IMG/VR virus record: IMGVR_UViG_3300044682_000046
Location: 1 to 55,730 of that record
Direction: 5' to 3' (one strand)
DNA length: 55,730 nt
From: a virus
This document shows, in pieces, positions 10,272 to 53,482 of this stretch (within the stretch, counting starts at the first letter, position 1; every line of letters begins with the position of its first letter). A model generated the notes under the pieces. That model was not told the origin of the DNA and made no database searches. It worked only from the letters and a program-made list of their open reading frames with translations. The position numbers and the translations under genes were made by a program.

Positions 10272-10529
10272 CTATGTCAACGGCAACATATAATTGACGC
10301 CGAGCCGACCGCCAACAACGCCAGCGCATTCCGCCAGTCTCCACAGGAGGATCAGGATGAAGATGGCGACAACGCCGCCGATGACGATCTGGATTATATT
10401 CCAGTAGGGGGCTCCAGTGATCCCGGTGAACACGCCGGGGAGCGCGGCCCTGATAAGGGCAAAGATGACCAGGATCACGATAATGAATATCGCGACCTGG
10501 AAGATTGTACCGATTCCGAATCCGCACAT
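10272..10529 (-). CDS. small membrane protein with two hydrophobic segments
   Basis: 85 aa from the ATG at 10529, chosen because GGAGAAGCAAC precedes it. Hydrophobic segments at about residues 11-30 (FQVAIFIIVILVIFALI) and 44-64 (WNIIQIVIGGVVAIFILILL). Could be a second holin-like protein; not assigned to a family. Confidence 0.55.
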   Translation of the reverse strand: MCGFGIGTIFQVAIFIIVILVIFALIRAALPGVFTGITGAPYWNIIQIVIGGVVAIFILILLWRLAECAGVVGGRLGVNYMLPLT

Positions 10530-10542
10530 GTTGCTTCTCCTT

Positions 10543-10680
10543 CTATTTTGGCTTTCCCTTTGATTTGTCCTCAAAGAGATCGCCCACCGCACCGATGAAA
10601 GCGACACAAATCGCGAGGAAGACAAGCCATCCCGCCGCGACGACGTTCTCTACTGGCACGCCAGGATCAGTCGGAATCAT
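10543..10680 (-). CDS. 45-aa membrane peptide
   Basis: MIPTDPGVPVENVVAAGWLV... has one transmembrane helix (AAGWLVFLAICVAFIGAV) and a lysine-rich tail (DKSKGKPK). ATG overlaps the stop of the upstream lipoprotein gene by one base. Confidence 0.5.
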   Translation of the reverse strand: MIPTDPGVPVENVVAAGWLVFLAICVAFIGAVGDLFEDKSKGKPK

Positions 10681-10802
10681 TACGGGAGAGCCGGTATCGA
10701 GATCGTCGGGGAAAAGTCGAATACGACCGTGCTCCCTGTGATCGTCATACAGCCGCTAAGCAGGATCGCCGCGAGAGCGAGCAGCACGGCGCGGAGCTTC
10801 AC
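10680..10802 (-). CDS. 40-aa lipoprotein
   Basis: GTG start in a GTGA overlap. VKLRAVLLALAAILLSGC is a lipoprotein signal with lipobox LSGC; the mature part is about 23 residues (MTITGSTVVFDFSPTISIP). It could be an outer-membrane spanin-like component, but it lacks the proline-rich character of Rz1 and no inner-membrane partner is obvious. Confidence 0.55.
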   Translation of the reverse strand: MKLRAVLLALAAILLSGCMTITGSTVVFDFSPTISIPALP

Positions 10803-10969
10803 AGCCGCCCCACCAGCATCAATATGACGACCACGATCAGGACGGCGCCAAGGATGCCGATCGCGCCGTTGCCGAAGCCGTAGCCGTGACCCCAATAGGG
10901 AATCACGCTGCCGCCGCCTAACCCTCCGCAGAGGAGCAAAACGACGATGATAAGCAGGATCAGGCCCAT
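10799..10969 (-). CDS. DUF3309-like small membrane protein
   Basis: 56 aa. MGLILLIIVVLLLCGGLGGG, a central tryptophan/glycine stretch (PYWGHGYGFGN) and a second hydrophobic helix (ILGAVLIVVVILMLVGRL) match the DUF3309 pattern of two short helices separated by a W/G-rich loop. This family is abundant in alphaproteobacterial chromosomes and phages and has no known function. Confidence 0.65.
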   Translation of the reverse strand: MGLILLIIVVLLLCGGLGGGSVIPYWGHGYGFGNGAIGILGAVLIVVVILMLVGRL

Positions 10970-11066
10970 GGGTTTTTCCTTGCGTTCTTTGCGGTGAGGG
11001 TGTAGAAGACAACGATCCTGGGCAGCCTAGAGTGACATTGCGCGGGGTTGGGAAGCTGGCCCAATG

Positions 11067-11098
11067 AAAAACCCGGAGGGAAATGGCACATCCTCCGG
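11067..11098 (-). terminator. rho-independent terminator (minus strand)
   Basis: On the minus strand a 7-bp stem CCGGAGG/CCTCCGG with a 12-nt loop is followed directly by GTTTTT. It lies between the gene block 18085-11671 and the small membrane-protein block 10969-8883, so the two blocks may be separate transcription units or joined by antitermination. Confidence 0.65.
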
Positions 11099-11122
11099 CA
11101 ACTGTGCACTTGAGTTAGCCCA

Positions 11123-11350
11123 ATGGTTTATGATAATGATTCTGCCGTCGTCTCCAACGAGGCGGCTGGCGTGCCCGAGACAGAGATTGAAATCACGCCC
11201 GAGATGATCGAGGCGGGGGTTGAGGCTTTGGCAATTTTTGGGGACAATCTGACATTTCGTGACCTTGGGCGCGGGGACTCTGAATGGCTTGTCATGAGGG
11301 TGGCGAGAGCTGTTCTTTCTGCAAAGAAAGTTTGTATTCCTGCATCCTAG
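11123..11350 (+). CDS. hypothetical phage protein on the opposite strand
   Basis: 75 aa, with EIEITPEMIEAGVEALAIF in the middle, a segment found in many small alphaproteobacterial phage proteins ('ITPEMIEAG'). The only plus-strand gene inside this otherwise minus-strand region, 25 bases beyond a minus-strand terminator and followed by a plus-strand terminator at 11484. It therefore looks like a self-contained insertion. Confidence 0.55.
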   Translation: MVYDNDSAVVSNEAAGVPETEIEITPEMIEAGVEALAIFGDNLTFRDLGRGDSEWLVMRVARAVLSAKKVCIPAS

Positions 11351-22143: not shown

Positions 22144-22189
22144 GTGCTAGCACCGTGCTATTGACTTGTCAAGCGCAAAATGCTAGGTA
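22144..22189. promoter_or_regulatory. divergent promoters with palindromic operator
   Basis: Plus strand: TTGACT (22161-22166), 17 bases, extended -10 TGCTAGGTA (TAGGTA at 22184-22189), only six bases before the ATG at 22196, so the transcript may be leaderless. Minus strand: perfect TTGACA -35 (22172-22167), 17 bases, weak TAGCAC at 22149-22144. The two -35 boxes overlap back to back, and the palindrome GTGCTAGCAC (22144-22153) covers the minus -10. It would control the minus operon and the plus-strand RHH gene together. Confidence 0.5.
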
Positions 22190-22195
22190 TCTTCC

Positions 22196-22354
22196 ATGCT
22201 CATGCCGACGGACAAACCGGTTGTGTTCGTGCGCTTCGCGCCCGAGACAAAGAAGGCGCTGAAAAAGGCAGCCGCCGCGGACATGCGCTCGGCCTCCTCG
22301 CTGGTCGAAAAAGTTATGACCGAATGGCTCAGACAGAACGGATTTCTCAAGTGA
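22196..22354 (+). CDS. ribbon-helix-helix-like protein
   Basis: 52 aa (second ATG at 22202 also possible). FVRFAPETKKALKKAAAADM then RSASSLVEKVMTEWLRQNGF is the order strand-helix-helix of MetJ/Arc/CopG-type repressors. It lies directly at the divergent promoter with the palindrome GTGCTAGCAC, so autoregulation is likely. The end EWLRQNGFLK recurs at the C-terminus of the next protein (EWLRAKGFLK). Confidence 0.6.
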   Translation: MLMPTDKPVVFVRFAPETKKALKKAAAADMRSASSLVEKVMTEWLRQNGFLK

Positions 22355-22821
22355 GCGGATCGATTTATGTAGCCCGCCCGGAAGCTGGCGGTCCCGTGAA
22401 GATCGGGAAGTCAGGAACGCCGCGCATAAGACTTAGCGAACTCAACGCCTCCTCTCCGATTCGGCTACTCATGGACTATGCTGCCCGCGCGGATGACGCC
22501 GGAACGATAGAAACCCGGGCGCACGAAATACTCAGGACGAACCGCGCTCATGGCGATTGGTTCAATGTCGATAGCGAGACAGCCATTTCCGCGGTTATCC
22601 AAGCCGCCGCCGAACTAGGTTTCGCGCTCACTCGCGTAGAGGACAATTTCCTTCCGATTGAACGCCCAACGGATACGGAACCCGTAACCCTCAGGCTTCA
22701 GCTCGAAGTGCTGGACGCCGTCGAGGATGCGCGCCGATCGATGCCCGTGATCCCCTCTCGGCAGGAGGTCTTGCGGACGGCGATCGTCGAATGGCTCCGC
22801 GCCAAGGGGTTTTTGAAATGA
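22351..22821 (+). CDS. T5orf172 (GIY-YIG-like) domain protein with RHH-like tail
   Basis: 156 aa from the GTG at 22351 (GTGA overlap). Residues about 4-70: SIYVARPEAGGPVKIGKSGT, PRIRLSELNASSPIRLL, ETRAHEILRTNRAHGDWFNV match the T5orf172/MUG113 branch of GIY-YIG nucleases. The C-terminal 45 residues (VTLRLQLEVLDAVEDARRS ... RTAIVEWLRAKGFLK) form a second RHH-like unit. Thus a nuclease-like domain is fused to the DNA-binding fold encoded just upstream. Confidence 0.75.
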   Translation: MSGSIYVARPEAGGPVKIGKSGTPRIRLSELNASSPIRLLMDYAARADDAGTIETRAHEILRTNRAHGDWFNVDSETAISAVIQAAAELGFALTRVEDNFLPIERPTDTEPVTLRLQLEVLDAVEDARRSMPVIPSRQEVLRTAIVEWLRAKGFLK

Positions 22822-23808: not shown

Positions 23809-23916
23809 ATGGGGAATTCCCAAGGGGCGGGAATACCGATCAAAGGCGGCTCGCAATATTCGGCGGTTTTTAATGACGTGGAGAATATAGACGAGGCCAT
23901 CTCCCACTTGCGTTAA
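23809..23916 (+). CDS. 35-aa peptide, convergent with the fibre gene
   Basis: MGNSQGAGIPIKGGSQYSAV then FNDVENIDEAISHLR and TAA. Its stop overlaps the stop of the convergent gene at 23913. Four bases separate it from the preceding stop. Weak evidence: no clear ribosome site, but the composition looks protein-like. Confidence 0.35.
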   Translation: MGNSQGAGIPIKGGSQYSAVFNDVENIDEAISHLR

Positions 23917-26279
23917 TTGGTCGATATGAACAGCACACTGCCGGGGGGCGGGCTCGCGCCAGCCCCGCCCGGAACGCCGGGGAGCGACCACTCATTTGCC
24001 CACCCATACCCCGGCGCGACGCCGCCGACGGCGTTGTCGCCGCTGTTGGCCGGCGCGGCGGCGCCCGGCCCGGAAGTCGCATTGCCTCCGGGCGCGACGC
24101 TGATCGTGCCGCAGGGGCCGGCGGCGGCACACGGCGAGCCGTCGTTCGTCTGGACGTTGTAAGGCAGGTTCACCGTCGTAGGGTTTCCGGAGCCGCCGGC
24201 CGCGATTGAATAGGTCGCCGGGTATTCGTCGGCATACAGCGTCATATTGTCAATCTCGGTAAAGGCGCCACTCCCGCCATTGTACGGCGAACTCGCCGCG
24301 CCCCCGGCCCCGGTAATTCTGATCGTGAGGTTCCGGCAATGCCGGGGGTTGCGCGTGCCGCTGCCCGACGTGTAGGGGCCGTCAACCCCCGGCGTGCATG
24401 GCGGCGGGGGCCAGCTCGCGGCCGCCGTCATTTTGGCGTCGAAATTGTCGATGTAGCGGAGATGGTTCTCCGCCGCCCACTCCTTGACCTGGCGATTATA
24501 GGTGTTGACGCCGTATCCTCCGTCAACATTCGTATAGATTTGGAACCATCCAAAATTGTTGAAATAGGTCAGGAACGTCGAGAAGAACGTGTGATAGTCG
24601 AGGATCGTGTGCGACGAGATAGTGACCAAATTGCCGTAAGTGAAGCCGCCCGCATCCGTGCCCGTGTCGCCCGCGCCAAGCCCAAGGAAGTGCGCGCCGG
24701 TCCCGGTCATGAGTTGCATCGTGCCGAACGGAGTGTTGTAGGGCAGCCAGGAACTCTGCTCGGCGATGAGGCGTGTCGATGTCCCATCAGGTCCGGTGAA
24801 CTCGGCGTCTGAGATTTGGAGCGGGGGGGACGTGAAGTTGAGCGCCTGCGCCGTCGTGCCGCAATCAATTGGATTCGCGTAGGCGCACGAGAGAATCCAG
24901 ATCGAGCCCTCGCACCCCGCGCCCGCGCACTTGGCCCCGGTCGCCGTTTGCGTGACGCTGCCGCCTGACACGTAGCCCATAACGCCGGTGGCGGGGGCTG
25001 AGTTGGCCGACGTCATCCAGCAGAAGGCGTGGCTCGTGGTGCAATAAGGGCCGTCGCCGCCGAACAGGTAGATGGCGGGATTATTCGCGACCACGGCCAT
25101 GGCCGTGGCGAGCGTCCCGGTGAACGACGACCCGATCTGTAGCTGGCCCCAATAGGCCGTAAAGGCGTAGGTCGGATTCTTGGCGGTGTTTGAATTGCTC
25201 GGTCCCGGCTGCCAATAGGTGCAACAGCCGCCCGAGAAGGTCGTCCATGTGACATAGACACCGGCGCCGCCCGGCGTCCCCGAAATCTGGCCCATATTGA
25301 CGATCCCAGTCGGCGTCGTCGCGACGTTCGCGCCGAATGGGATCGAGCAGCCGGCGGTCGACGTGACGACCATGAACTGGAATAAGACGTAGCCCGTGAA
25401 ATTGCAGCTTTCGCCGGTAACGGAGGTCCCCGTCGCGGCGGCCGAGCCGAGCGGATTATTGTAGACGTAGGCATTGAAACTGTCGTTTGCGTAGGACGCG
25501 ACTTGCGCCCATGACGGATTGAAAGTGATCGTTCCCGTGCATGGGCAAGTGACCGTTCCGGCGACAGTGAACGTGACGTAGTTCGCGCTCGCGTCGGTCG
25601 TCGTGTAATTGCCGTTGAGGGTCGGCCCGCTCGCGTCCGAACCGCTCGAAATCGTGATCAACGAGTCGCCGGCCGGCAGGGCGTTGGGGCTTGCGATCGC
25701 AGTCGACCAGGTGAGCACGATCTGCGTTGTGGGGACGGCGACTGTCCCGTTCGGCGTCGCGGTCCCGCTCACGGCGACTTGTTGCGGCGGCAGGCAGAGC
25801 GGCGATGTCGTGTCGGCGCAGACCGAGAAAGGCACCGTGTAGCCGCTCGGGTTGATGTTCGCGTCGATATCGTAAGTGAGCGACGCGGGGCACACCCCGA
25901 TCGTCATGTTGCAGCCGGCCTGGATCGCCGCCAGCGAAGGTTCCGGGATGCTGAAATCGCGTGCCCGCGCCCCCCCGGACGGCAGGCGGCTGAAGTAGAG
26001 CGTTATGGTCGGCCCGCTGTACCCGGCGAAATACTGCTCCGCCTGGGTGCATTCTGGGCTACCGAGGCCGAAGTAGTCGCACGCCTGCCGCGAACTCTGG
26101 AATCCGACGACGGCGTCCACAGGCAGGATGTTATTTCCCGTGAAGACGAGCACATTGGGATTGGTCGAACTCGGCACGGCGACGAGCTGGTTGAGGTAGC
26201 CGGCCTGGGCCTCCGCGAGGCCGAGGAGCGACAGGAACAGATAGAGATAGGTGAAGACCCTGATCGTCGCTGATTTCAT
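23913..26279 (-). CDS. exported fibre-like protein with sheath-like domain
   Basis: 788 aa. N-terminal signal peptide (TYLYLFLSLLGLAEA ending AEAQA). Residues about 60-110 (ACDYFGLGSPECTQAEQYFA, TITLYFSRLP) resemble the opening of the DUF3383 sheath domain ('FG..SpE...A..YF...lY..R'). The body contains Ig-like beta repeats (VAVSGTATPNGTVAVPTT; ANYVTFTVAGTVTCPCTG) and the C-terminus is glycine-rich (GGAASSPYNGGSGAFTE; GGVAPGYGW). Last structural gene, directly after its 1004-aa paralogue. Glycine-rich ends usually bind receptors. Confidence 0.6.
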   Translation of the reverse strand: MKSATIRVFTYLYLFLSLLGLAEAQAGYLNQLVAVPSSTNPNVLVFTGNNILPVDAVVGFQSSRQACDYFGLGSPECTQAEQYFAGYSGPTITLYFSRLPSGGARARDFSIPEPSLAAIQAGCNMTIGVCPASLTYDIDANINPSGYTVPFSVCADTTSPLCLPPQQVAVSGTATPNGTVAVPTTQIVLTWSTAIASPNALPAGDSLITISSGSDASGPTLNGNYTTTDASANYVTFTVAGTVTCPCTGTITFNPSWAQVASYANDSFNAYVYNNPLGSAAATGTSVTGESCNFTGYVLFQFMVVTSTAGCSIPFGANVATTPTGIVNMGQISGTPGGAGVYVTWTTFSGGCCTYWQPGPSNSNTAKNPTYAFTAYWGQLQIGSSFTGTLATAMAVVANNPAIYLFGGDGPYCTTSHAFCWMTSANSAPATGVMGYVSGGSVTQTATGAKCAGAGCEGSIWILSCAYANPIDCGTTAQALNFTSPPLQISDAEFTGPDGTSTRLIAEQSSWLPYNTPFGTMQLMTGTGAHFLGLGAGDTGTDAGGFTYGNLVTISSHTILDYHTFFSTFLTYFNNFGWFQIYTNVDGGYGVNTYNRQVKEWAAENHLRYIDNFDAKMTAAASWPPPPCTPGVDGPYTSGSGTRNPRHCRNLTIRITGAGGAASSPYNGGSGAFTEIDNMTLYADEYPATYSIAAGGSGNPTTVNLPYNVQTNDGSPCAAAGPCGTISVAPGGNATSGPGAAAPANSGDNAVGGVAPGYGWANEWSLPGVPGGAGASPPPGSVLFISTN

Positions 26280-26282
26280 CGG

Positions 26283-29200
26283 TCAATGATCCTGCGCCGA
26301 GACGATCGCGGCAAAGCCGCCCGCCGAAGACCCGGCTGCTCCAGGTGTGCCGTGGCTCGATCCTCCACCGGGGCCGCCCGACGCGCCGTAGTTTCCAGCC
26401 AGGCCGCCATTGCCGGCTTGGGGTGTGGTTGTCGAAATCGTTCCGTCCGCCGCTGCGCCTCCTCCGCCGCCCTGTCCGAAGCCGCCCGCGCCGAAAAGAG
26501 AGACGAGGCCAGTCCCGCTCCATCCCGGAGCGCCGTTGCCGGAGTTCGTACTCGCAACCGAGGTGCCTGATCCCGCGCCGCCCGGAGAATTGCCGTTCGA
26601 CGCGGCCGTATTCTGTCCCGCGCCGCCCGGCGTCCCGTCGTTATTCGCGCCGGCCGCCCCGCCTGATGTGACCAGCGTGCCCGTCGTGCAGCCGGTTAGA
26701 GGCGTTGTCCCACCCGGACACCCCACGCCGCCCGTACCCGTACCGCCGCCGCCGCCAGCGCCCGTATAGATCGAGTTCCCGCCTTTCTTGCCGGCGTTGA
26801 TGAATGTGGCCGATCCCGTTCCTCCGGGGGCGCCGACGCCGCCGTCGCTGTTGGGAGGAGCGCCGCCGACGCCGCTCGCGCAGGTAATGGCCCCTCCGGG
26901 AAACGTGTAGGTTCCTGATGGGCAAGTCTGCGCCGACGTCGTGCCGGCGATCGAGCCCGCGGCGGTCATGGCCTCCGCGGCAATGGCGCCCGCTTGGGCC
27001 ACGCTCAGCGCGTAGACGCACGGCGTCCCGACGCTGCACGAGCCGGGCGTCCCCGAGACGAGCCCCGTGATCGTCGTAGACGCCGTGACGCTTGTGCCGT
27101 GCAGGAAGAAAGCCGACCCGGTCGAGGCGTATTGGATCGTCCCCGTCGTCGGGTTGGCCGTGAGGACGAGCTGCGAAAGGTTTCCGACGAGCACCGAGCC
27201 CGTGAACGCGGCCGCGGTCGGCGCGGTGGCGTTCCCGCCGCTGAAGGCGTAGGGAGCAGAGGAAAACAAGATGCCGGTCGGTGCTGTGCCGATCTTCGTG
27301 CTGAGCCCGCCGCATGCCGAGTCGACGGTGAACGTGTAGATTACGCCGCCGCTGTCAGAGGTGACCTGCGTCAGTTCCTCGGCTGAGGCGCTCGCGCCTG
27401 GCGAGCCCGGGGCGCCAACCCCAATGCCACCGGCGAGGCCATTGGTCGAGCACCCGCCCGACCCGATCAAGCCGATCGTGTGGACCGGGCACCAGTCCGG
27501 CCCGTAGGTGTAGACCCCCGGCGACGTGTAGCGCGTCGGGGCCGGCGTGCATGACGGGGGAACGGAAGTATTGTTCGCCGCGAACGGATACCAAATCTCG
27601 CTTCCCACACGGAAATATTGGTAAGGAGCGACCGGGATGTTCGCGTCGCCGAGGCTGCCATAGAAGCTCGTGACGGCGTTCTTGTAGGTAGGCGTGACCG
27701 TTCCGCTGACGACGAGGCCGAGGTCGGGGTCAATCTGCAGCCCTACCACCGTCGCGGCCGGAATGATGGTCGAATGCGCGAGTTCGAGCCATTGAGCGTA
27801 GGACGTCATGCCAGGGGTGACCCCAAGTACCTCATCCTGGAACGACAAGCTCGCGCCACCGTAGGGCCACGAGACGGGGCTCGCCGGCCGCGCGCTCGCC
27901 AGGTCAAGCCCGAGCGTATGCGCCGCGGTTCCGGTCGCCCAGGTCAGGGTCGGCGCGGGCCAATAGGGGCAATAGGCGCTGACGCTCGGCCAGATGCGGA
28001 TATAGTCGTTGACTACGCCAGTATAGGCGTTCGCTTCGAGGTCGAACGGGCACGGGGCCGAGGTCATCGTCTCGGTGCCCGAAGACGGCACGGAAGTCTC
28101 ATTTTGGTCATTGCTCAATGCGAACTCAGCGCCGGCGCAGCCCGCGCCCTGGCAGTAAGCGATCCCGTTGTAGTATTGAATGCTCGCGGCCCCCCCGATA
28201 TAGGCCGTGATGACGCTGTTAGAGGCCCCCGTGCTATTCCCGGCGAGTCCCGTCCCGTAGAGCGCGTCGCCAACAGAGACAATCCCGCTCGCGCCGACGC
28301 TCGTGATGGTGAGGACGCCCCAATTCTCCTGCCAAGCGGCCGGCTCGCCGCTGAGATTGTTCTGGAGGGCGTAGTTCTGGGCGAAGTTGTCGAGCCAGAC
28401 CGCGTGGACGCCCGCGCCGCCAGGAGTGCCACTGACCTGACCGAGCGCGAGCTGCCCGATCCAGCTCGGGAACCCGCCGCCGTTGCAGGGAAAGCCGCTC
28501 GCAAGATTGGTGCAATTGAGGAGGCCGCCCTCCTGGTAGCAGTTCGACGACGGCGTGCCGACGCCGGTGCCCCCGGTCGCGGACGTCACCGTCATGAACC
28601 CGGCCGTGATTATGCCTGAGACCTGGCAAGAGGCCGGCGTAACCTGGCCGACGATGGCGGCATAGGGAGTCGCTGCCGCGGCCGCATTGAGATACGTCTG
28701 AATAGTGGAAGCAATTATGGCCCAACTATCGCCGGACAGCGTGGGCAGCGTGGCCGTGACGGTCTGAACGCCGTGGACGTTCGTTCCGCCAATGCCGATG
28801 GTGATCGTCGATCCGCCAAGCGCCTGGATCGCTCCAAGCGCGCAATAGGTTTGCCCGATCTTGCATGTCGTATCGGTCGTTGTAATCGGGCCGTCGGCGA
28901 CCGGAACCTGTTCGAGCACCGCGCCGAGGCCACGCGCACGGCCGCCGCCGACCGGGCTGCGGGTAAAAAACAATTCGGCGTTGCCGCTGGAGTAGCCGCT
29001 AAAAAAGCCCTGACAACTGATGTATTCCGGCTTGCCGTCGCCGCTCGTCGTCCCGAAAAAATCGGCGCAATCATTGAGATTGCCAAAGCCGAAACTCTGG
29101 TCGAAAAGCGCATTGTGATCAGGCGTTGCGATCCAACCGACGACTTGGCCGTGCGTATTCGGGATGGTCGCAAGGCCCCCGCCAATGCCCGGAGGCGCGC

Positions 29201-29297
29201 CGGGGAGCGACATGCCGGCCGGCGTCATGGCCGGGGCCGCGCGCGCGGCCGGTATGCCCGCTAGCAGCAGGATGATGGCAAAGAGAGCGCGGAGCAT
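26283..29297 (-). CDS. large exported glycine-rich fibre-like protein with sheath-like domain
   Basis: 1004 aa from the ATG at 29297. Signal peptide MLRALFAIILLLAGIPAARA. Residues about 60-110: CADFFGTTSGDGKPEYISCQ, GFFSGYSSGNAELFFTRSP, again like a DUF3383 sheath start; then STITIGIGGTNVHGVQTVTA, matching the interspersed beta domain of sheaths. The C-terminal third is a very Gly/Ala/Thr-rich collagen-like region (GAGGGGGTGTGGVGCPG; GAGGFGQGGGGGAAADG). Paralogue of the gene downstream. Probably a host-binding protein; the secretion route is unexplained. Confidence 0.6.
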   Translation of the reverse strand: MLRALFAIILLLAGIPAARAAPAMTPAGMSLPGAPPGIGGGLATIPNTHGQVVGWIATPDHNALFDQSFGFGNLNDCADFFGTTSGDGKPEYISCQGFFSGYSSGNAELFFTRSPVGGGRARGLGAVLEQVPVADGPITTTDTTCKIGQTYCALGAIQALGGSTITIGIGGTNVHGVQTVTATLPTLSGDSWAIIASTIQTYLNAAAAATPYAAIVGQVTPASCQVSGIITAGFMTVTSATGGTGVGTPSSNCYQEGGLLNCTNLASGFPCNGGGFPSWIGQLALGQVSGTPGGAGVHAVWLDNFAQNYALQNNLSGEPAAWQENWGVLTITSVGASGIVSVGDALYGTGLAGNSTGASNSVITAYIGGAASIQYYNGIAYCQGAGCAGAEFALSNDQNETSVPSSGTETMTSAPCPFDLEANAYTGVVNDYIRIWPSVSAYCPYWPAPTLTWATGTAAHTLGLDLASARPASPVSWPYGGASLSFQDEVLGVTPGMTSYAQWLELAHSTIIPAATVVGLQIDPDLGLVVSGTVTPTYKNAVTSFYGSLGDANIPVAPYQYFRVGSEIWYPFAANNTSVPPSCTPAPTRYTSPGVYTYGPDWCPVHTIGLIGSGGCSTNGLAGGIGVGAPGSPGASASAEELTQVTSDSGGVIYTFTVDSACGGLSTKIGTAPTGILFSSAPYAFSGGNATAPTAAAFTGSVLVGNLSQLVLTANPTTGTIQYASTGSAFFLHGTSVTASTTITGLVSGTPGSCSVGTPCVYALSVAQAGAIAAEAMTAAGSIAGTTSAQTCPSGTYTFPGGAITCASGVGGAPPNSDGGVGAPGGTGSATFINAGKKGGNSIYTGAGGGGGTGTGGVGCPGGTTPLTGCTTGTLVTSGGAAGANNDGTPGGAGQNTAASNGNSPGGAGSGTSVASTNSGNGAPGWSGTGLVSLFGAGGFGQGGGGGAAADGTISTTTPQAGNGGLAGNYGASGGPGGGSSHGTPGAAGSSAGGFAAIVSAQDH

Positions 29298-29298
29298 C

Positions 29299-30519
29299 TT
29301 AGTAGAGTTCCGAACACACGATCTGCTGGCTGGCCGAGGAAGTGATCCCGTACAGCGCACTGGTCACTGGAAAGGTCAGAGTCGCCCCAATGTACCCCGG
29401 CAAGAGCCAGCCCAGCGTAGCGCCCGTCGCCGTCACGGTCGTTCCGCCAAGGTAGACGTTTGTCGTCCCAAGATTTTCACACATTACCGCGATGCGGCCG
29501 GTCCCCGGCGCGCCTGTCCTGGCGCTGAAAATGAGTGTCCCGCCGTTAGAGCCTGCCCCGCCGCTTGAGGCGATGGTGAACGGCGCCGGGGCGAAATTAT
29601 TTGCGCCGACAGGGTTCGCGCCCTGGAGGGCCGCAGTGGCGGCGCCCGACGGAAGCGGAGCACTGGCCAGCGCCACATTGATAGTCGATTGATCCGAGGC
29701 GATATTGACCGTCGGCGAGGCCGACATGGTCGTCTGCCCGAGACCCTGCGCGTTATTGACCTGAATGCCGTTGGTTGTGCCTGGCGTGGTCTGGTCGATG
29801 TCGACTTTGCCGACAATCTGCGATCCGGCGGCAAGTCCGACGGCGCCGCCACTGTTTTGCATCGGCGAACCCAACGTCGCGTTGATCGTCGAGAGCGAGC
29901 CGTTCGCCGTCGTCTGGTTTGCAGCCGTCGCCAGCGCGGCGCCGCTTGGGCCTACAGCCGTCATGTTGAGATTTGCGGCTGTCGGTTGGGTAACAACGCC
30001 CCCGCTACTCGGTCCGCCGCCTCCACCACCTGATCCGGTCGGCAGGCCGGCGCCCCCAGAAATGTTAATCGCGAGCGTGCCCGCCGGGGAGATGCAGGCA
30101 ATATCAGTCGCGCCGGCGGGCACGGTGAACGCAACCCAGGAATTGGCCTGAATTACATCATTGCCGGCCGTCGCCGTGACGCTGCTTGATCCATAGGTGC
30201 AATAGGCGACATTGGCCGACGTGTTGTAAACAACATCGACAATTCCGGTGGGGACCGCCACACGCTGGCTGGTCGTTAAGGCCGACGACAATTGCGAATA
30301 GGAGGGCGTCGGCGTGAAGCCGCCTAATGTCGCCGAGAATGTGCCAGAAATGGGCAGCGGATTTGAACCGGAAACCGGGGCCATCTGCCCCGACCCGTTG
30401 TTGGTCAAAGGAACCGTGCCAGTTGCTTGATGGCCATCCGGCGTTGGAAAGACTATCTGCGCCAACGAATGATGGCCCAAGGCGCAAAGGATCGCCGCCG
30501 CGTAAAGGGCGCGCTTCAT
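29299..30519 (-). CDS. exported tail/fibre-associated protein
   Basis: 406 aa from the ATG at 30519, preceded by GAGGTTCCCCA. Signal peptide MKRALYAAAILCALGHHSLAQ. Mature part: beta-rich with repeats such as PLTNNGSGQMAPVSG, ATAANQTTANGSLSTINATL, ASPTVNIASDQSTINVALAS, a style common in phage fibre and neck-whisker proteins. A glycine hinge (GSGGGGGGPSSGG) separates two parts. The end (YGITSSASQQIVCSELY) is compact. Confidence 0.6.
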   Translation of the reverse strand: MKRALYAAAILCALGHHSLAQIVFPTPDGHQATGTVPLTNNGSGQMAPVSGSNPLPISGTFSATLGGFTPTPSYSQLSSALTTSQRVAVPTGIVDVVYNTSANVAYCTYGSSSVTATAGNDVIQANSWVAFTVPAGATDIACISPAGTLAINISGGAGLPTGSGGGGGGPSSGGVVTQPTAANLNMTAVGPSGAALATAANQTTANGSLSTINATLGSPMQNSGGAVGLAAGSQIVGKVDIDQTTPGTTNGIQVNNAQGLGQTTMSASPTVNIASDQSTINVALASAPLPSGAATAALQGANPVGANNFAPAPFTIASSGGAGSNGGTLIFSARTGAPGTGRIAVMCENLGTTNVYLGGTTVTATGATLGWLLPGYIGATLTFPVTSALYGITSSASQQIVCSELY

Positions 30520-30551: not shown

Positions 30552-31205
30552 CTAGACCACGATCGGCGCGGCCGGGCCGTAGGAGAGCACTGTCGCCGAG
30601 AAGGGCGCCGCCACGCCTACCGTCAGCGTCGAGTTGGCGAAGATATCTTGCGTGAGCACGCCGTCGGTCGCCACAAGCGTCATCGAATAGGCCCCGGCCG
30701 CCCATCCGGCATTATTCAAAGCCGTACATGTCGCCGTCAGGATATTCGAGAGTGAGCCGCTGATTACGATTCCGCCCCCGGTTGCAATCCCCGTTGTCGC
30801 CGCGCTCGCCCAGCCGCCTTGCGGATTGGCGATCGTGAGCGTCACGCCATTTGCAAGCGCGATTGCCCCGGCCGTCTCACATGTCGCGTTGACAATAATC
30901 GAACCGCTTGCGGGGATCGTGACAGACGAGGGAAGCGCCCAGACATTGCCATTCGGGTCGGTTAGAAGGCCGGCGGCGATTACCGCGCCGCCCGTCCCGC
31001 CGGCCTGGACCGGGACCGTCGCATAGGTTGCGGTCGAAAGCTCGGCGACTATTTCGCCCGTTGTATTCGGCGGAAAGATCGAAAGCGTGAACGTGATCCC
31101 GGTTAAGGGAGCGCCGAAGGCAAGCGAGAACGTAAGGTCTTCTTCGCCGCTGATGCTGGCCTGGGCCTGGACAAGCGAGAGAAGCGGAATGTTCGTCGCA
31201 GTCAT
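30552..31205 (-). CDS. tail-associated protein with gp47/BppJ-like segment
   Basis: 217 aa. N-terminus ISGEEDLTFSLAFGAPLTGI looks like a phage receptor-binding N-domain. Residues about 75-145 (DPNGNVWALPSSVTIPASGS, IVNATCETAGAIALANG, LTIANPQGGWASAATT) are clearly similar to the matching segment of the baseplate J protein at 33375 (DPAGNTWALPASVTIP, VSATCQTQGAIQ, LTILNPQMGWQTVTTT). So it appears to have captured a beta domain from the J protein. Confidence 0.6.
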   Translation of the reverse strand: MTATNIPLLSLVQAQASISGEEDLTFSLAFGAPLTGITFTLSIFPPNTTGEIVAELSTATYATVPVQAGGTGGAVIAAGLLTDPNGNVWALPSSVTIPASGSIIVNATCETAGAIALANGVTLTIANPQGGWASAATTGIATGGGIVISGSLSNILTATCTALNNAGWAAGAYSMTLVATDGVLTQDIFANSTLTVGVAAPFSATVLSYGPAAPIVV

Positions 31206-40724: not shown

Positions 40725-40940
40725 ATGACAGCATCCGATTGGCTCCTACTCGCGCTTGTGATTGCGACCTATTTTCTCCCAACGATCATCGCCGCCTCAC
40801 GAGACCACCAATCCACAGCCGCAATTTTCGTCGTCAATCTCCTCGCCGGCTGGACGGGCCTCGCTTGGCTCGTTGCCTTCATTTGGAGCCTGACGGGAAC
40901 GAACAGACAGCGCGTCATCGTCATTGAGCGGAACAGTTAG
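40725..40940 (+). CDS. imm: superinfection immunity protein (T4 Imm-like)
   Basis: 71 aa. Two transmembrane segments: WLLLALVIATYFLPTIIAAS and IFVVNLLAGWTGLAWLVAFI. YFLPTIIAA...NLLAGWTGLGW-type sequence is the family signature. In T4, Imm sits in the inner membrane and blocks DNA entry of related phages. Seven bases after the secreted protein gene. Likely a prophage-expressed exclusion function. Its stop overlaps the stop of the convergent GH108 fragment. Confidence 0.85.
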   Translation: MTASDWLLLALVIATYFLPTIIAASRDHQSTAAIFVVNLLAGWTGLAWLVAFIWSLTGTNRQRVIVIERNS

Positions 40941-41128
40941 ACTCGCCGCCGATGGTCCTCTAATTGGAACACGCTACGCGGCGCGAGCCCCGCCGATTCC
41001 CGATAATAATTGTACGTGTCTTGTGTGATCCCCTGGTTAGTGCGCCCGCCAGGATCGTGCGCCAGATTGGCTTTGCCGCCTTCCTTCTCTAGAACTGCCG
41101 CAAGCGCGCGTTGGAAATTGCTCTCCAT
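40937..41128 (-). CDS. truncated GH108-type lysozyme fragment
   Basis: 63 aa. FQRALAAVLEKEGGKANLAH then DPGGRTNQGITQDTYNYYRE and GLAPRSVFQLE match the N-terminal domain of GH108 muramidases, including the catalytic EGG glutamate. Full-length enzymes are about 170-190 aa, so the remainder is missing. The gene ends exactly where the moron pair ends, as if the moron insertion removed its 3' part. One-base overlap with the tail-chaperone gene upstream. Confidence 0.65.
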   Translation of the reverse strand: MESNFQRALAAVLEKEGGKANLAHDPGGRTNQGITQDTYNYYRESAGLAPRSVFQLEDHRRRV

Positions 41129-42349: not shown

Positions 42350-44179
42350 CTACCGATTGACAGAGATCAGGATGTTCGGTTGGTGAACCGCGCCGGCCAA
42401 CTTGACCGCGCACTGGAACGGAACGGAGATACGTTCGTCGCGTTCCGTCTCGCTTTGCGTCGCAATCAGTGGATACCAAACATAAAACCCGTTCGAGAGC
42501 GTATATCCCGTATTGAGAGAGCCAAAGGGAGAGGCATCCCAGACGCCCGGCGCCATAAGTCCGTTGACGACGCCTTGAACAAGGCTATTCTCGATGTTCG
42601 TCGCAAGCATGTTGTCCCCGGCGTCGGTTTGCGGAACCTTGGTCGTCACGTCAGAATACATAAAATTGAACATATTCGTCTGGACATAGTTTGCGAGCCA
42701 GTCGCAGCCAAACACCTCGTCAATCCAGTAGCCATTCTCCATCTGGCCAGGCCAGATCATCTGCGCGCCGTTCTGCACAAGGATGACGGCGTTGCAGCCC
42801 TTGGAAACAAGGGTTGCGAATTCGTTCTGGTTGAGATTTTCCGCGATGATCCCCGGCGCTTGCTTCCAGGCAAGCGTGATCGTGGTCAGGCTGGCGAGAT
42901 AATCGACCGTCCCGATACGGCCGGCGAGCGAGGCCACGCTATAGGGATTCGTGCTCGAATAATTGACGAACACCCGCTTATTGTTGAGCGATTGCATGAC
43001 GGACGCGATGTCGCTCGTATCCTCCGGATTAAGGACGCCGGTATCTTGCGTCGAGAGGCCGAACGTCCGCAAAGGCTCGGACGCGAGGATATAGTTCGCG
43101 GTGTTGATGAGGTCGGTTTGCGTCGGCGTCGCCGCGGCGGCAAGAATTTCGTCGTACCACTGCGAGCTCGCATTTGCGCACGCCTCGGTCGCGGAAAGCA
43201 GCGTCTCGGCCGCGATGCCATTGACCGGAGGTGTCGCCCCCGCGATCAAGGAAAGGCCAAGGAGCGCGGAAACGTCGGTCGCGTTGCCGCCCGCAAGCGT
43301 CGCGCCGCTGAGCGTGATATTGCTGTCGGTCGTCGTGAGCGTAAACGCATCTCCTCCCGCGCCGGGCGTGTTGTAGACGACAGAGATTGAAAGTCCGCCG
43401 GAAGCGAGGTAGTTCGCCTGGCTGATATTGACATCGGCGCTCGCGTTCAAGAAAGTCAGCAAGGCTGCCGTTGTCAGAACATCCGTCGTTCCGATCTTTA
43501 CTTGATCGCCGGTCGGCGTGCCGGCGACGAATTCAACAGCCGTTCCACCAAGGCTGATCGTATGGGTAGCCGTCGGCTGTCCCGTGAGCGTAATCAATCC
43601 GACGGCCGTCGGCACATTCGCATACCCGATCGTGGAGGTTGGGCCGGACACCCCCGCCACCGTAACAATGAACTGCCCATAGGAAGCATTCCAGACGCAG
43701 CCCACGTCTCCGACGACGGTCATCAGTTGCGTCTGGACTTCCGCCGCAACGCCGTTGAGATTGGTTGCGGTGGAAAAATTCAACCCGGTAATGGCATAGC
43801 CGAACCCGTCGACCTCGATATAAAATCCTCCGCTCGTAATGCCGGTGAAGTTTGTGAGCAATTGCTGCTCGGTCGTAAGATATGCCCCCTCCAACTCAGC
43901 CGAGGTAGACGTGCTCGCCCAGCGGCCGATGTAGACAAGCTCCGGCTGCGGCTCCTGGCCGAAATAGGGCACGCACGCAAGATATTCCGGCGCGGTATTG
44001 CCAAAATCGGTCGCAACGCCGGTCAGGCTTGTGTACTGACGCACGCGCTCATTGACATCGATGATTTTCGAATCGCCGATCATGAGCGGCACGCCGATAT
44101 TGGAATACGGAACCGCCGGCGGAGCAACGGTTACGCTTATTGGAACGAAATCATCGACGGCCAATCCTTGAACGGTCAT
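42350..44179 (-). CDS. tail sheath protein (DUF3383)
   Basis: 609 aa. VPYSNIGVPLMIGDSKIIDV, FGNTAPEYLACVPYFGQEPQ, PELVYIGRW at the N-terminus; then repeated beta domains (TTEQQLLTNFTGITSGGFYI; ATHTISLGGTAVEFVAGTPT); then NIASVMQSLNNKRVFVNYSS-like (SVMQSLNNKRVFVNYSS) and EVFGCDWLANYVQTNMFNFM near the C-terminus. The contractile sheath surrounds the DUF3277 tube. AGGAG lies before the ATG. Confidence 0.9.
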   Translation of the reverse strand: MTVQGLAVDDFVPISVTVAPPAVPYSNIGVPLMIGDSKIIDVNERVRQYTSLTGVATDFGNTAPEYLACVPYFGQEPQPELVYIGRWASTSTSAELEGAYLTTEQQLLTNFTGITSGGFYIEVDGFGYAITGLNFSTATNLNGVAAEVQTQLMTVVGDVGCVWNASYGQFIVTVAGVSGPTSTIGYANVPTAVGLITLTGQPTATHTISLGGTAVEFVAGTPTGDQVKIGTTDVLTTAALLTFLNASADVNISQANYLASGGLSISVVYNTPGAGGDAFTLTTTDSNITLSGATLAGGNATDVSALLGLSLIAGATPPVNGIAAETLLSATEACANASSQWYDEILAAAATPTQTDLINTANYILASEPLRTFGLSTQDTGVLNPEDTSDIASVMQSLNNKRVFVNYSSTNPYSVASLAGRIGTVDYLASLTTITLAWKQAPGIIAENLNQNEFATLVSKGCNAVILVQNGAQMIWPGQMENGYWIDEVFGCDWLANYVQTNMFNFMYSDVTTKVPQTDAGDNMLATNIENSLVQGVVNGLMAPGVWDASPFGSLNTGYTLSNGFYVWYPLIATQSETERDERISVPFQCAVKLAGAVHQPNILISVNR

Positions 44180-44241: not shown

Positions 44242-45990
44242 CTAGAACCCCGCGCCAGAATTATGGACGAAGACATAGTCCCCAGCGGTAATATTGGCGC
44301 TAGATACGATGCCTAAACCGTTGTTATTATACGGAGCGCTCACATTCAGATACGCACTCGCTCCATACCCCGTAAGCGCCACGCCTTGCGGGGATGAATC
44401 GTGGCTAAAGGCGAAGGCGATCACGCAAGAAGTCCCGGCAGCAGCTCCCCAATCAATATGGAAGTCGTAGTCTGTCCCGGCGACCTGAGCGCCCGTGCCC
44501 CCGCATCCCGACACAACGGTCGGCGAGAGGCCCTCCATGTTCGTCCCGTTGTCATAGAATGATGGGTTTGCCTGAAACTCGATGTGCGCCCCAGGAGCGG
44601 TATTATGGACGCCTATCCCGTTCTGCCCGATCGCCCCGCCTGACAAATACATGCGGATTTGGTCCGACTGGGCCAAAATCCCCGATACGCTGCAATTCTC
44701 AATGCGGGCGCCTATAAGGTGAATCTCCCAATTGACCTCGCTTCCCACCTTGAGACAGGTCGCAGTGGTGCTGATCCAGCACCCCTCACAAAAGAACTGC
44801 ACGCCTCCCTGGCCCGGTCCCGGCCCATGTCCGAAGGTGAGGTTGTCTGCCGCCCCGGCGCTGTTGGCCGATACGGTCGCCACCACAAGGTTCGTCCCGC
44901 TGCAGGATGTGATCGGCCCGATATTCCTCGGCGGAATGAGAGACGTATCGAACAGGAAACTCGAAAGCAGCGTCGCCGGGCACGCCGCTACAGGGATCGT
45001 GACCGCGCTGCCCGCAGAAAATGAACTCGTCGCATTGGTCGTAAACGGCGCGGCGTTGCCGTCGATTCCCGTGTCCTCGATATCTATTCCGATCGGCGGG
45101 CCGCCGTCGCTGGCGAAGTTCGGCCCAAAGCGAAACTGGTTGTTATGAACCGGGACTTGCGACTGGTCGATCCGCACGTTAGCGACGCTGTTGCCGTCAA
45201 CGTCGGCATTGTCCCAGTAGCAGCCGCCGCAGTTTCCTCCGATGAGCAGCCCGTAGCCGCAGCCCACGAGATCAATGTGTAGATGAAAGGCGTCGGTGAG
45301 TTGGACCGTCGTATCGCCGTTGATGACCTCGCAGGCGTTAGACCCCCTGGCGGTAAGGAAGTTGGCGTGTATCACCCCGCCGCCATTGATATGAATCCCA
45401 TTGTAGAAATTCGCGTTAGTGAAAAACGCGCCAACGGTCACATTGCTTATAGTCAATTCGCAAATATCATTGAGGCGGAACCCATCTCCGCCGGTCATGA
45501 CTGTCGTGGAGGCGATATTGAGGTCTCGGATCGTCTCCACGCTGGCAGAGCATGCTCCCAATGTTGTGCCCCACGTGACCAGATTGCCAGTTGTGGCGGA
45601 ACCTTGATACGAAAGCGTGGCTCCATTGCCATAGATGATGATGTTATTTACCTGCGGGAGGGTGATCGGTTCCTTAAAGACGCAGGTTGCGCCTTGGGGC
45701 ATAGCGATGGAAGTGTTGGCGGTCACACTTGCGAAGAACGCATTGAGCATTGCCGCATCGTCGGTCGCCGCGTCGCACTTCACGCCGGAATTGAGGGGAC
45801 TGACCGGTGGAGCGGTGTACAGAATCGGCTGATTGCCGAGCGTAAGCGAGCCGCCGACGCTCGCATTGCCGTTGACCTGCAAGCTATCGGTTTCGGTAGA
45901 GCCAAAGTACGGCGTGCCGCTTCCCCCGGCCATCGCTTTCGACGATAACAAGGCAACGACGATCGTCCCGAGAACGAGCGATCTAATCAC
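44242..45990 (-). CDS. exported beta-helix spike (pectate-lyase-like)
   Basis: 582 aa from the GTG at 45990 with AGGTG upstream, sharing one base with the neck-gene stop. Signal peptide VIRSLVLGTIVVALLSSKAM then A. Residues about 40-100 (GNASVGGSLTLGNQPIL; GVKCDAATDDAAMLNAFFAS) match the start of pectate-lyase-superfamily tail spikes; then repeated short strands (INGDTTVQLTDAFHLHIDLV; NWEIHLIGARIENCSVSGIL) form a right-handed beta helix. Many cysteines. Oddly located between neck and sheath genes. Confidence 0.7.
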   Translation of the reverse strand: MIRSLVLGTIVVALLSSKAMAGGSGTPYFGSTETDSLQVNGNASVGGSLTLGNQPILYTAPPVSPLNSGVKCDAATDDAAMLNAFFASVTANTSIAMPQGATCVFKEPITLPQVNNIIIYGNGATLSYQGSATTGNLVTWGTTLGACSASVETIRDLNIASTTVMTGGDGFRLNDICELTISNVTVGAFFTNANFYNGIHINGGGVIHANFLTARGSNACEVINGDTTVQLTDAFHLHIDLVGCGYGLLIGGNCGGCYWDNADVDGNSVANVRIDQSQVPVHNNQFRFGPNFASDGGPPIGIDIEDTGIDGNAAPFTTNATSSFSAGSAVTIPVAACPATLLSSFLFDTSLIPPRNIGPITSCSGTNLVVATVSANSAGAADNLTFGHGPGPGQGGVQFFCEGCWISTTATCLKVGSEVNWEIHLIGARIENCSVSGILAQSDQIRMYLSGGAIGQNGIGVHNTAPGAHIEFQANPSFYDNGTNMEGLSPTVVSGCGGTGAQVAGTDYDFHIDWGAAAGTSCVIAFAFSHDSSPQGVALTGYGASAYLNVSAPYNNNGLGIVSSANITAGDYVFVHNSGAGF

Positions 45991-50619: not shown

Positions 50620-51588
50620 TCAGCTTCTCGTGCTGATCATCGCGAGTTCGTTCGCCCCCGCGTAGGTATCGACAAGCCATTTCGTCGCGACGTTTGTGGC
50701 GCCGGTAACGGTCCCGCTTGAGGCCGTTTGCGAGGGCGAAACCGCATAAGTGCCCGCGCCGCCCCCGCCCGTCAGCGCCGCGGTTGCGCCGCCATTGGTC
50801 GAGTTGGCCCAGATGGCGGACCCCGCCGAGACGCCGGTTCCGGTCAATGTCGCGCCTAGCGGGTAAGTCCCGGTCACGGTCCCGCCGAGCGTAAGCAGCC
50901 CATACGAGCCGGTGATTGTTTCGGACGAAATCGACTGATAATCGCCGACCGAAAGCAGATAGCGCCCGACGCCGCCGACCGTTTCACCCGTGTTGAGCGG
51001 CGTGACCTGGACGATCACCTGAGTGCCGCTGACGACGTTCGTGCCCGAAATGATCGTGCCGGGAACGATCGAGCCCGCCGAGACGGCGGTGACGGTCATG
51101 AGGTTGTCGCTGATCGCCGCCGTGCAAGAGAGCGTGGTGACGGGCGCAATTGTAAACGTGGTCGAGGTCGCCGAGGACGGCGCGCTCGCTGCCGCGGCGA
51201 CCCCGGTTCCGTCCGCATAGTTGGCGTAAACCGTCTGGCCAATCTGGGCGCCCGCCGCGAACCGGCACCAAACGTCCGCCGTGTCGAAGATGTTCACCTC
51301 CATCCCCGGCGGGATCGTCATCGTCGATTGCGGGAGCCAATTCGCATAGCCGGTCGGCACGATAAGCGCCGGCTGGTCTTTCTGGATGAAACCGAGCCGC
51401 CCGTTGCCGCCGACGGCGACAATGCCGGACGGGCTGAGCCAGGCGAACCGGCCGACAACGACGCCATTCGGGCCGGCCATAGGCTGCCCCGGCCCGACAA
51501 GCATGGAGAATTTCGGATTGGCTGACGCCCAGCCCCCCTCGATGCCCGGAGCGGGATTTGCGTTCATGACAGTTTGAAATCCGGCCAT
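50620..51588 (-). CDS. structural cement protein Gp24-like with beta-repeat insertion
   Basis: 322 aa. N-terminal AGFQTVMNANPAPGIEGGWA, VGRFAWLSPSGIVAVGGNGR, LGFIQKDQPALIVPTGYANW, TMTIPPGMEVNIFDTADVWC: Gp24-like cement fold (about 130-170 aa in simple relatives). The second half carries beta repeats (SAGSIVPGTIISGTNVVSGT; ATLTGTGVSAGSAIWANSTN; GGAGTYAVSPSQTASSGT), then the native end KWLVDTYAGANELAMIS. AGGAG before the ATG. Confidence 0.75.
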   Translation of the reverse strand: MAGFQTVMNANPAPGIEGGWASANPKFSMLVGPGQPMAGPNGVVVGRFAWLSPSGIVAVGGNGRLGFIQKDQPALIVPTGYANWLPQSTMTIPPGMEVNIFDTADVWCRFAAGAQIGQTVYANYADGTGVAAAASAPSSATSTTFTIAPVTTLSCTAAISDNLMTVTAVSAGSIVPGTIISGTNVVSGTQVIVQVTPLNTGETVGGVGRYLLSVGDYQSISSETITGSYGLLTLGGTVTGTYPLGATLTGTGVSAGSAIWANSTNGGATAALTGGGGAGTYAVSPSQTASSGTVTGATNVATKWLVDTYAGANELAMISTRS

Positions 51589-51651: not shown

Positions 51652-52596
51652 TCATACGTGTTGTGGCGCCGGATTCTTGGCGAAGAACTCGGACAACACG
51701 CCGTCGCCGGCCCGGCCGCTATCGAGCGCCAGGCCCGACGCGGACGCGAGGGCTGAACTCTGTTTCGCCGTCGCGACTTGGCTGAACAAGATTTTGAGCG
51801 CCGGCAGCGGAAGGCCGGCGATCTCGTCTTTCTTGACGCCCGCAAACTGCCCCAGGGCGGTCGCGTAGACGGTCTCGGCGCTCTTGCTGTCCTCGGCGAT
51901 TTCAAGCCGGCCCACGAAAGGCGCAACGGCCTGCTCGGCCTCGCGAATGGCGCGATGCTTCGCCTCGGAGGCGGCAACCGCCGCGCCGATCATCTTCTCC
52001 ACTACCGCCGCGTCCATCGCGCCACCGCCTGTTTCCAGTTTCTCGACGCCCTGTTGGCGCGCGCTCGCGCCCTCGGCGTCCCTCGCGCGCTTGTCTTTCG
52101 CCTTGCGGTCCATGCGCTGCTCTTCCGTTTCGCCGTCGCGGGCGCGCTTCCGATCCTCGGACGCCTCCTCCTCGTCGCGCTTTTTCGCCTCGGCCTCGGC
52201 GTCCTTGGCCTTTTTGGCGTCGGCGGCGCGCTTGTCCTCGGCCTCTTTCTTCTTCTTGGCCTCCTCCTCTTCGGAGTCCTTCGCGCGCTTCGCGTCCTCG
52301 GCCTTCTTCTTTTCGGCCTCGGCCTCGTCTTTCGCCCGCTTGTCGCGCGCCTTGCACATGGCGTCGTAGGTCTTCCAATCCTCGGCGCTCATCTTGCTCT
52401 TGACGAAGTTTTCCGGCTCGGCGTCCTTGGCCTTGCGATCTTCTTCCGTGCTTGACATTGGAATCCCCGCATTTGGAGAGGTTGACATTACTTGATCGCT
52501 CCCTGTGACAAGCAAGGATTCATCAAGGCCTAACACTTTCAGTACCGCTTGGGGTGTGATAAACTTCTCTTGCAATGCCGCCTTGAGAGAAGTCAT
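51652..52596 (-). CDS. scaffold half of the DUF2213 protein
   Basis: 314 aa. Begins MTSLKAALQEKFITPQAVLK then VLGLDESLL, which in relatives lies directly after the protease domain. Residues about 60-185 are an extremely charged Lys/Glu/Asp/Arg coiled coil (EEEEAKKKKEAEDKRAADAK) typical of scaffolds, followed by a helical end (FVGRLEIAEDSKSAETVYAT; FSQVATAKQSSALA). GAGG lies seven bases before the ATG, so it can be translated alone. Separated from the protease half by a GIY-YIG gene. Confidence 0.75.
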   Translation of the reverse strand: MTSLKAALQEKFITPQAVLKVLGLDESLLVTGSDQVMSTSPNAGIPMSSTEEDRKAKDAEPENFVKSKMSAEDWKTYDAMCKARDKRAKDEAEAEKKKAEDAKRAKDSEEEEAKKKKEAEDKRAADAKKAKDAEAEAKKRDEEEASEDRKRARDGETEEQRMDRKAKDKRARDAEGASARQQGVEKLETGGGAMDAAVVEKMIGAAVAASEAKHRAIREAEQAVAPFVGRLEIAEDSKSAETVYATALGQFAGVKKDEIAGLPLPALKILFSQVATAKQSSALASASGLALDSGRAGDGVLSEFFAKNPAPQHV

Positions 52597-53482
52597 GAAC
52601 GAACCTCAGATTTTTTACGTCTATGCTCTATTCGATGCTAATGGCATTCCACGCTACATCGGTAAAGGCAAGGGCAGCCGATGGTTCAACCATCAACGAT
52701 GGATTGAGCGCCGAAATCAAGTCAAACGAGCTTTCATCAAGCGAACCTTGGGCAAACTCGGCGACATACCCAAGGTCAAAGTCCGACAGAATATTTCTGA
52801 AGCTGAGGCGTTCGAAACGGAAATAGCCTTGATTAAGGCTATTGGACGACAGGACAAGGGACTTGGCCCTCTCACGAACATGAGCGACGGCGGAACGGGT
52901 GGATATTGCGGCAATCCCCTGTCCCGCAAAGTCCGTACATGGACGCCAGAACAACGCAAACACTTCGGCGAAAAAATCAAATCGTGGTGGGCTTCTGCTT
53001 CATCACAAGAAAAGGAACTTCAGCGCTCCGTGGCCCTAAAAATGCACAATCACCCAAATTATGGGCTCAAACGTCGCATGGCTATAGTAATAGGGAAACA
53101 GAAGCGCTCGCCAGAACAACGAGCAATGACCGCTGCCAAATTACTTGTTGCCTTTCCACCCGAAAAACGAAGTGAGGCGGCCAAGCGGTTCCACTCCTCT
53201 CAAACACAGGAGGAACGAAACCGGCGAGTCATCGGCTCCCTAACTCAAGATCAACGAAGAGAAAGATCGATAAAGTCTAATAAATCCCAGACTACAGAGC
53301 AGAGAAGCGCTCGCAACCGTCTCGCCGCAGCTAACTTCTCTCCTGAAGCCAAGATTAGACGAAAAGAACGCGCTCGCCTGCTTGGCATGAGCCGTTGGAT
53401 TACAAACGGCCAAGACACTATGAGGATATCCGAGATAGAAGCTATACCTGTAGGATGGCGCTATGGCCGCACGCGCGTATAG
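52595..53482 (+). CDS. GIY-YIG homing endonuclease
   Basis: 295 aa. N-terminus FYVYALFDANGIPRYIGKGK then GSRWFNHQRW is a GIY-YIG nuclease (YVY...YIGKG, LEM-3-like subgroup). The body has short repeated motifs (TPEQRKHFGEKIKSWW; SPEQRAMTAAKL; TQDQRRERSIKSNKS; TTEQRSARNRLAAANFSPE) like NUMOD3-type DNA-binding modules. Ends GMSRWITNGQDTMRISE. Inserted on the opposite strand between the two halves of the DUF2213 gene; its ATG and the scaffold ATG overlap in CATG. Base composition is more AT-rich than the virion genes. Confidence 0.85.
   Translation: MNEPQIFYVYALFDANGIPRYIGKGKGSRWFNHQRWIERRNQVKRAFIKRTLGKLGDIPKVKVRQNISEAEAFETEIALIKAIGRQDKGLGPLTNMSDGGTGGYCGNPLSRKVRTWTPEQRKHFGEKIKSWWASASSQEKELQRSVALKMHNHPNYGLKRRMAIVIGKQKRSPEQRAMTAAKLLVAFPPEKRSEAAKRFHSSQTQEERNRRVIGSLTQDQRRERSIKSNKSQTTEQRSARNRLAAANFSPEAKIRRKERARLLGMSRWITNGQDTMRISEIEAIPVGWRYGRTRV

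Follow-up and report, generated by a model that had tools for sequence, protein, structure and literature searches.

Two predicted exported proteins of a phage tail-fibre cluster carry an N-terminal domain related to the DUF3383 tail sheath

Introduction

PblA and PblB of streptococcal phage SM1 are tail proteins that serve as bacterial surface adhesins, and Lom of phage lambda is an exported protein encoded beside the tail-fibre genes. Tail sheaths of the DUF3383 family (PF11863) include gp31 of Pseudomonas phage E217 (PDB 8env, 8fuv), whose lattice is held together by an N-terminal arm (residues 1-23), a C-terminal beta-turn (460-488) and a C-terminal arm (491-504) (PMC10329688). The tail of Agrobacterium phage Milano is rich in disulphides and its tailspike is in direct contact with the sheath; cysteine richness is also possible in virions that oxidise after release (PMC10811340).

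Here we describe two ORFs (ORF A and ORF B) in a window of 55,730 nucleotides, which is a 55.7-kb virus record of IMG/VR and not host genome. The proteins share with DUF3383 sheaths the motif FG..S.E...A..YF..(L)(Y/F)..R and a second colinear block, but differ from them by a signal peptide, 22 cysteines and a fibre-like C-terminus, and by the lack of the N-terminal arm, the C-terminal half, the C-terminal beta-turn and the C-terminal arm. They resemble Lom in gene position and predicted export, whereas Lom is a small outer-membrane barrel with no virion-type domains; PblA and PblB, unlike A and B, have neither a signal peptide nor a sheath domain. In Milano, by contrast with A and B, the cysteine enrichment (2.1%) extends across the structural proteins generally, and no signal peptides are mentioned for its proteins in the available part of the report (PMC10811340). 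Among the open-licence papers searched, we found nothing on point about signal peptides on tail fibres, and no combination of a sheath domain with a signal peptide.

Late tail operon and signal peptides

The late genes of the phage are encoded on the minus strand in the order capsid, sheath, tape measure, Baseplate_J, DUF2612, a PHROG tail-fibre protein (phrog_11303), ORF C, ORF B and ORF A. ORF A is the final late gene, and plus-strand genes lie beyond the end of C-B-A. Downstream of the Baseplate_J, DUF2612 and phrog_11303 genes, A and B have the fibre-cluster position of a tail fibre or adhesin. The genes and signal peptides concerned are as follows.

42350..44179, minus strand: the phage's own tail sheath (DUF3383, E = 1.8e-105; PHROG 205 tail sheath)
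44242..45990, minus strand: ORF D, signal peptide and 16 cysteines; next gene upstream of the sheath, within the tail operon
29299..30519, minus strand: ORF C, 406 aa, signal peptide and fibre-like protein; upstream neighbour of B
26283..29297, minus strand: ORF B, 1004 aa, architecture as in A
29238..29297, minus strand: signal peptide of B, residues 1-20
23913..26279, minus strand: ORF A, 788 aa, signal peptide, DUF3383 N-terminal domain, beta modules and fibre-like C-terminus
26208..26279, minus strand: signal peptide of A, residues 1-24 (heuristic Sec score 5.61)

An earlier note had described A and B as starting with a signal peptide followed by sequence like the start of the DUF3383 sheath, and Pfam, hhalign and our heuristic signal calls bear this out, the signal peptides being of the Sec type. 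The translated starts of both ORFs show a tripartite N-terminal signal with an AxA-type cleavage site, as in Sec substrates (MKSATIRVFTYLYLFLSLLGLAEA before QA in A; MLRALFAIILLLAGIPAARA before AP in B); these calls rest on our own heuristic Sec score and on the start-codon context. The stop-to-start gaps between C, B and A are 1-3 nt, the ATG of A lying 3 nt and that of B 1 nt past the preceding stop codon. The signal peptides thus sit on translationally coupled starts, and this tight packing indicates that the signal-including starts are the natural ones.

An unlikely alternative is that A and B are ordinary virion fibres, in which the hydrophobic N-terminus is a non-export or uncleaved attachment peptide and disulphides form after release, as in phage Milano. 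An in-frame ATG of B at 29228, just past the signal, would suit such a protein, but it is not preceded by a Shine-Dalgarno sequence. The signal peptides themselves would also agree with lysogenic-conversion cargo, that is, a Lom-like moron that is exported or surface-located, is produced in the lysogen to serve host adhesion or to control superinfection, and never enters the virion; lambda's exported outer-membrane Lom is likewise encoded beside tail-fibre genes. We regard this reading as improbable too, since C, B and A follow one another in the late tail operon as a coupled series in which no separate unit can be seen, the domains of A and B are of virion types, and no outer-membrane barrel, lipobox, anchor or secretion domain was recognised in either protein.

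Several neighbouring genes showed features of their own. A family search with ORF D gave nothing above the cut-off. A domain of about 110 residues in a 217-aa fibre-cluster protein (30552-31205, minus strand) shares 45% identity (E = 7e-22) with the Baseplate_J protein of this phage (33375-34685); it is the second instance, within the cluster that contains A and B, of a core tail domain put to further use. Between the tape-measure gene and its neighbours, a 63-aa ORF (40937-41128, minus strand) aligns with Glyco_hydro_108 over the first half of the family only (E = 7.6e-10) and is probably a truncated lysin remnant. Two plus-strand genes run against the late operon: one (22180-22821) matches MUG113/T5orf172 (GIY-YIG type), and the other (52505-53482) is, by eye, a similar GIY-YIG homing-endonuclease-like insert.

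Sheath-type N-terminal domain

A and B are homologous to each other (BLASTP E = 1e-9) and are composed of the following regions.

25917..26168, minus strand: A residues 38-121, sheath (DUF3383) N-terminal domain (modelled b-b-a-a-b, core pLDDT 70-97)
25245..25592, minus strand: A residues 230-345, second DUF3383-colinear block, with a G.SGTPGGAGV repeat module at its end
23916..24404, minus strand: A residues 626-788, fibre-like C-terminal region in place of the sheath C-terminal half
28893..29150, minus strand: B residues 50-135, sheath (DUF3383) N-terminal domain
28398..28841, minus strand: B residues 153-300, second DUF3383-colinear block (LGAIQAL..TITIGIGG..SWAIIASTIQTYL and repeat module; score 37.4, maximum of 60 shuffles 26.2)
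26286..27488, minus strand: B residues 604-1004, glycine-rich C-terminal domain

The motif that had first drawn attention to the two proteins, FG..SpE...A..YF.....lY..R, is nearly exact in A (FGLGSPECTQAEQYFAGYSGPTITLYFSR) and only loosely kept in B (FGTTSGDGKPEYISCQGFFSGYSSGNAELFFTR), where there is a 4-residue insertion, F replaces Y and the A is absent. Pfam DUF3383 matched residues 38-88 of A (E = 2e-5; 6.2e-8 in a single-record search) with 24.1 bits, which is below the family cut-off of 34.9 bits, so that A does not count as a full-length member of PF11863; the Pfam search with B gave no hit to any family. Profile comparison, which the earlier note had proposed, did reveal the similarity in both proteins: in hhalign against 38 DUF3383 sheaths the E-values were 7.6e-7 for A, 2.5e-7 for B and 8.2e-9 for the A+B alignment (score 75.3), while 200 column-shuffles of A+B reached at most 28.5 and the reversed alignment 16.3. 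The 38 sheaths represent a DUF3383 subfamily with the N-terminus IPAS..SAGG..L.GL.LT..TRVPIG.V.SF..AAAV.AYFG..S.E...A..YF.GF, and were gathered with a hand-written consensus, which served as bait only. A scan of IMG/VR with the A+B alignment found only two proteins, both of them full, genuine DUF3383 sheaths (L006, L007).

The earlier note had linked the domain to the sheath of the same phage. Derivation from DUF3383 stands, but the source is not simply the resident sheath. Against a profile including the phage's own sheath, A+B gave a real but weaker score (40.8, E = 2.6e-4; shuffle maximum 26.2), and hmmsearch of A with a profile of sheaths close to the phage's own gave 6.1 bits, which is not significant and falls within the shuffles. 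The similarity of A is hence to the wider Pfam family and to the other DUF3383 subfamily. A and B appear closer to that subfamily than to the resident sheath, a comparison that profile depth also affects; the weaker score suggests that they are probably not recent duplicates of the resident sheath gene.

The homology extends over two colinear blocks (A 38-121 with B 50-135; A 230-345 with B 153-300). Taken alone, the second block is less specific, since similar motifs occur in FliD- and FlgE-like proteins of the flagellar cap and hook. A third candidate block, the LGL...WA region (A 500-625, B 438-575), looked alike by eye, but its score was within the shuffles. Flagellar hook (FlgE-like) and cap (FliD-like) proteins in L119 and L120 also scored against the DUF3383 mid-region, and partial DUF3383 hits to the mid-region alone should accordingly not be read as sheath.

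Structure prediction agreed with the sheath assignment in part. AlphaFold was confident only for the first block of A (residues 12-78 of the mature protein, pLDDT mostly >70, b-b-a-a-b); outside this core the models were poor (mean pLDDT 42 and 37.5), and that of B was too poor for use. Among the 50 matches listed by Foldseek for the A model, essentially all were contractile sheaths, from phages, a pyocin and extracellular injection systems, the best being E217 gp31 (8env; probability 1.0, E = 7e-3). The fold match is supportive rather than independent, because the AlphaFold input alignment contained sheaths and the result is partly circular.

A separate beta module, G.i..GT.i....GtgGaGtY.v..sq.v, recurs in unrelated structural proteins, as seen at 50620-51588 (minus strand) of the window and in the sheaths L028-L078. 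Its carriers in this phage group are the sheath, a capsid-adjacent protein and tail proteins, and it is apparently a mobile insert domain.

Loss of the lattice-forming parts

The homology of A and B begins at about sheath residue 25-27 and is seen only up to about residue 216 of about 570. The place of the sheath N-terminal arm is taken by the signal peptide and a short linker, and the C-terminal half of the sheath is absent, fibre-like sequence standing in its place. In A this region opens at a Cys-x19-Cys pair common to B. The glycine-rich character is clear in B, where glycine makes up 32-38% across residues 801-1000, and weaker in A. Neither protein thus has the lattice-forming arms and C-terminal domain of a DUF3383 sheath, and without these parts A and B cannot be sheaths.

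The same absence bears on the idea, raised in the earlier note as a surface decoy, that A and B are a secreted sheath mimic able to bind phages (incoming or competing) or to block receptors. An exported sheath-type domain is the sole point in its favour. With the lattice arms missing, no co-polymerisation with a sheath is expected; moreover, phages do not bind receptors through their sheath subunits, neither an anchor nor an outer-membrane export route was seen, and by position the genes belong to the late operon rather than to lysogenic functions. We consider a decoy very improbable. The adhesin reading of the same note, on the other hand, fits the predicted architecture and the gene position of A and B.

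Cysteine content and pairing

Each mature protein contains 22 cysteines (2.88% in A, 2.24% in B). The 27 structural proteins of this phage that lack a signal come to 0.64%, the resident sheath to 0.99% and the related sheaths to 0.43%. Among the other signal-bearing proteins, D has 2.85% and C only 1.04%. Overall, cysteines are enriched in the signal-bearing proteins relative to the remaining proteins of the phage (Fisher's exact test: p = 1.4e-11). Consecutive cysteines form short pairs beyond random placement (p = 1.5e-5 in A, 2.5e-3 in B), and four pairs are equally spaced in A and B (C-x6-C, C-x4-C, C-x19-C and C-x5-C; spacings of 7, 5, 20 and 6). One pair brackets the sheath motif (A 67-77, B 77-95). 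Disulphides are predicted for this pair and for 123-130, 451-456 and 628-648 in A and 145-152, 382-387 and 583-603 in B.

A and B thus show the cysteine enrichment, even count and short-range pairing of disulphide-bonded extracytoplasmic proteins. Such pairing would be favoured by oxidative folding outside the cytoplasm, and it supports export independently of the hydrophobic N-terminus, suggesting that A and B really leave the cytoplasm. For ordinary virion fibres it can be said that virion disulphides without export do exist, as in Milano (PMC10811340). In the present phage, however, high cysteine content is largely limited to signal-bearing proteins, which argues against that explanation.

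Recurrence in related phages

In 20 related virus records, we examined the sequence that follows the sheath gene downstream. Seven of these 20 fibre clusters encode signal-bearing fibre-like proteins of at least 300 aa, eight in all; in addition, L004 has two smaller ones and L128 has one that runs off the contig. The same detector called only 2 of 581 structural genes near the sheath, so the recurrence of tripartite AxA-type signals in fibre-cluster genes also speaks against non-export N-termini of ordinary fibres. An even number of cysteines was present in 14 of the 15 complete signal-bearing proteins with cysteines, versus 48 of 87 controls (p = 0.0036). Judged by these predictions, the presence of a signal peptide on proteins of the fibre cluster recurs among these phages, and the surprising part of the observation is wider than A and B themselves. 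The export claimed in the earlier note is a prediction that gains support from this recurrence and from the cysteine pairing.

The proteins of L132, L136, L137, L138, L140, L149, L150, L004 and L128, which are encoded where the tail operons of these related environmental phages end, are like A and B in their signal peptide, fibre-cluster position and usually even number of cysteines. Unlike A and B, none of them has DUF3383, and several have other fibre N-termini (e.g. PTPGQWNSYFAAKQDYLG); the sheath domain was seen only in A and B among the signal-bearing fibre-cluster proteins. In L147, a signal-bearing protein resembling an outer-membrane beta-barrel (Omp25/RopB-type, by eye; 10431-11231, plus strand) lies downstream of the phage tail cluster and is possibly a moron or host flank.

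No protein relatives of A and B were found in IMG/VR, GTDB genomes or INPHARED, in 39 related virus records, in 289 genomes of the class of G322, or in a search with the mid-region alignment, and no protein of the same architecture appeared in these scans. The A+B profile gave one marginal match in 398 Pseudomonadota genomes, to the C-terminal repeat region only (E = 3e-4). These scans used short exact patterns or a loose first look and could miss distant relatives. A lack of close relatives is what accessory cargo of the moron type would lead one to expect.

Proposed role of A and B

We propose, with a rough probability of 0.5, that A and B belong to the accessory tail appendages (fibres or adhesins) and are expressed late, exported by Sec, disulphide-bonded and equipped with a sheath fold as N-terminal module. 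In this model, A and B would be translated with a Sec signal peptide and moved across the inner membrane; once the signal had been cleaved off, each would fold in the periplasm and form as many as eleven disulphides. The first domain would be the core of a contractile-sheath subunit that, deprived of its N-terminal arm, C-terminal beta-turn and C-terminal arm, would no longer polymerise into a sheath. It would now serve as the N-terminal module, at the site where fibres usually have their attachment domain, and would be followed by repeat modules and a fibre-like C-terminal tip (glycine-rich in B). Lysis would free the proteins, which may then dock on virions, a step we only guess at, or bind their target as free proteins. 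As periplasmic and cytoplasmic contents mix at lysis, docking at that time would reconcile export with virion-type domains.

A broader reading, which is possible but which we hold as doubtful, is that in this phage group the tail appendages of the fibre cluster are exported by Sec, undergo oxidative folding in the periplasm and join virions no earlier than lysis, the sheath subunit having been turned into a docking module in A and B. The usual view is that tail parts assemble in the cytoplasm. Recurring signal-bearing, cysteine-paired fibre-like proteins at the ends of tail operons would mean that some of the tail, or else a secreted partner of the tail, matures outside the cytoplasm. A and B further indicate that a sheath subunit can take on a new role as a module that does not polymerise.
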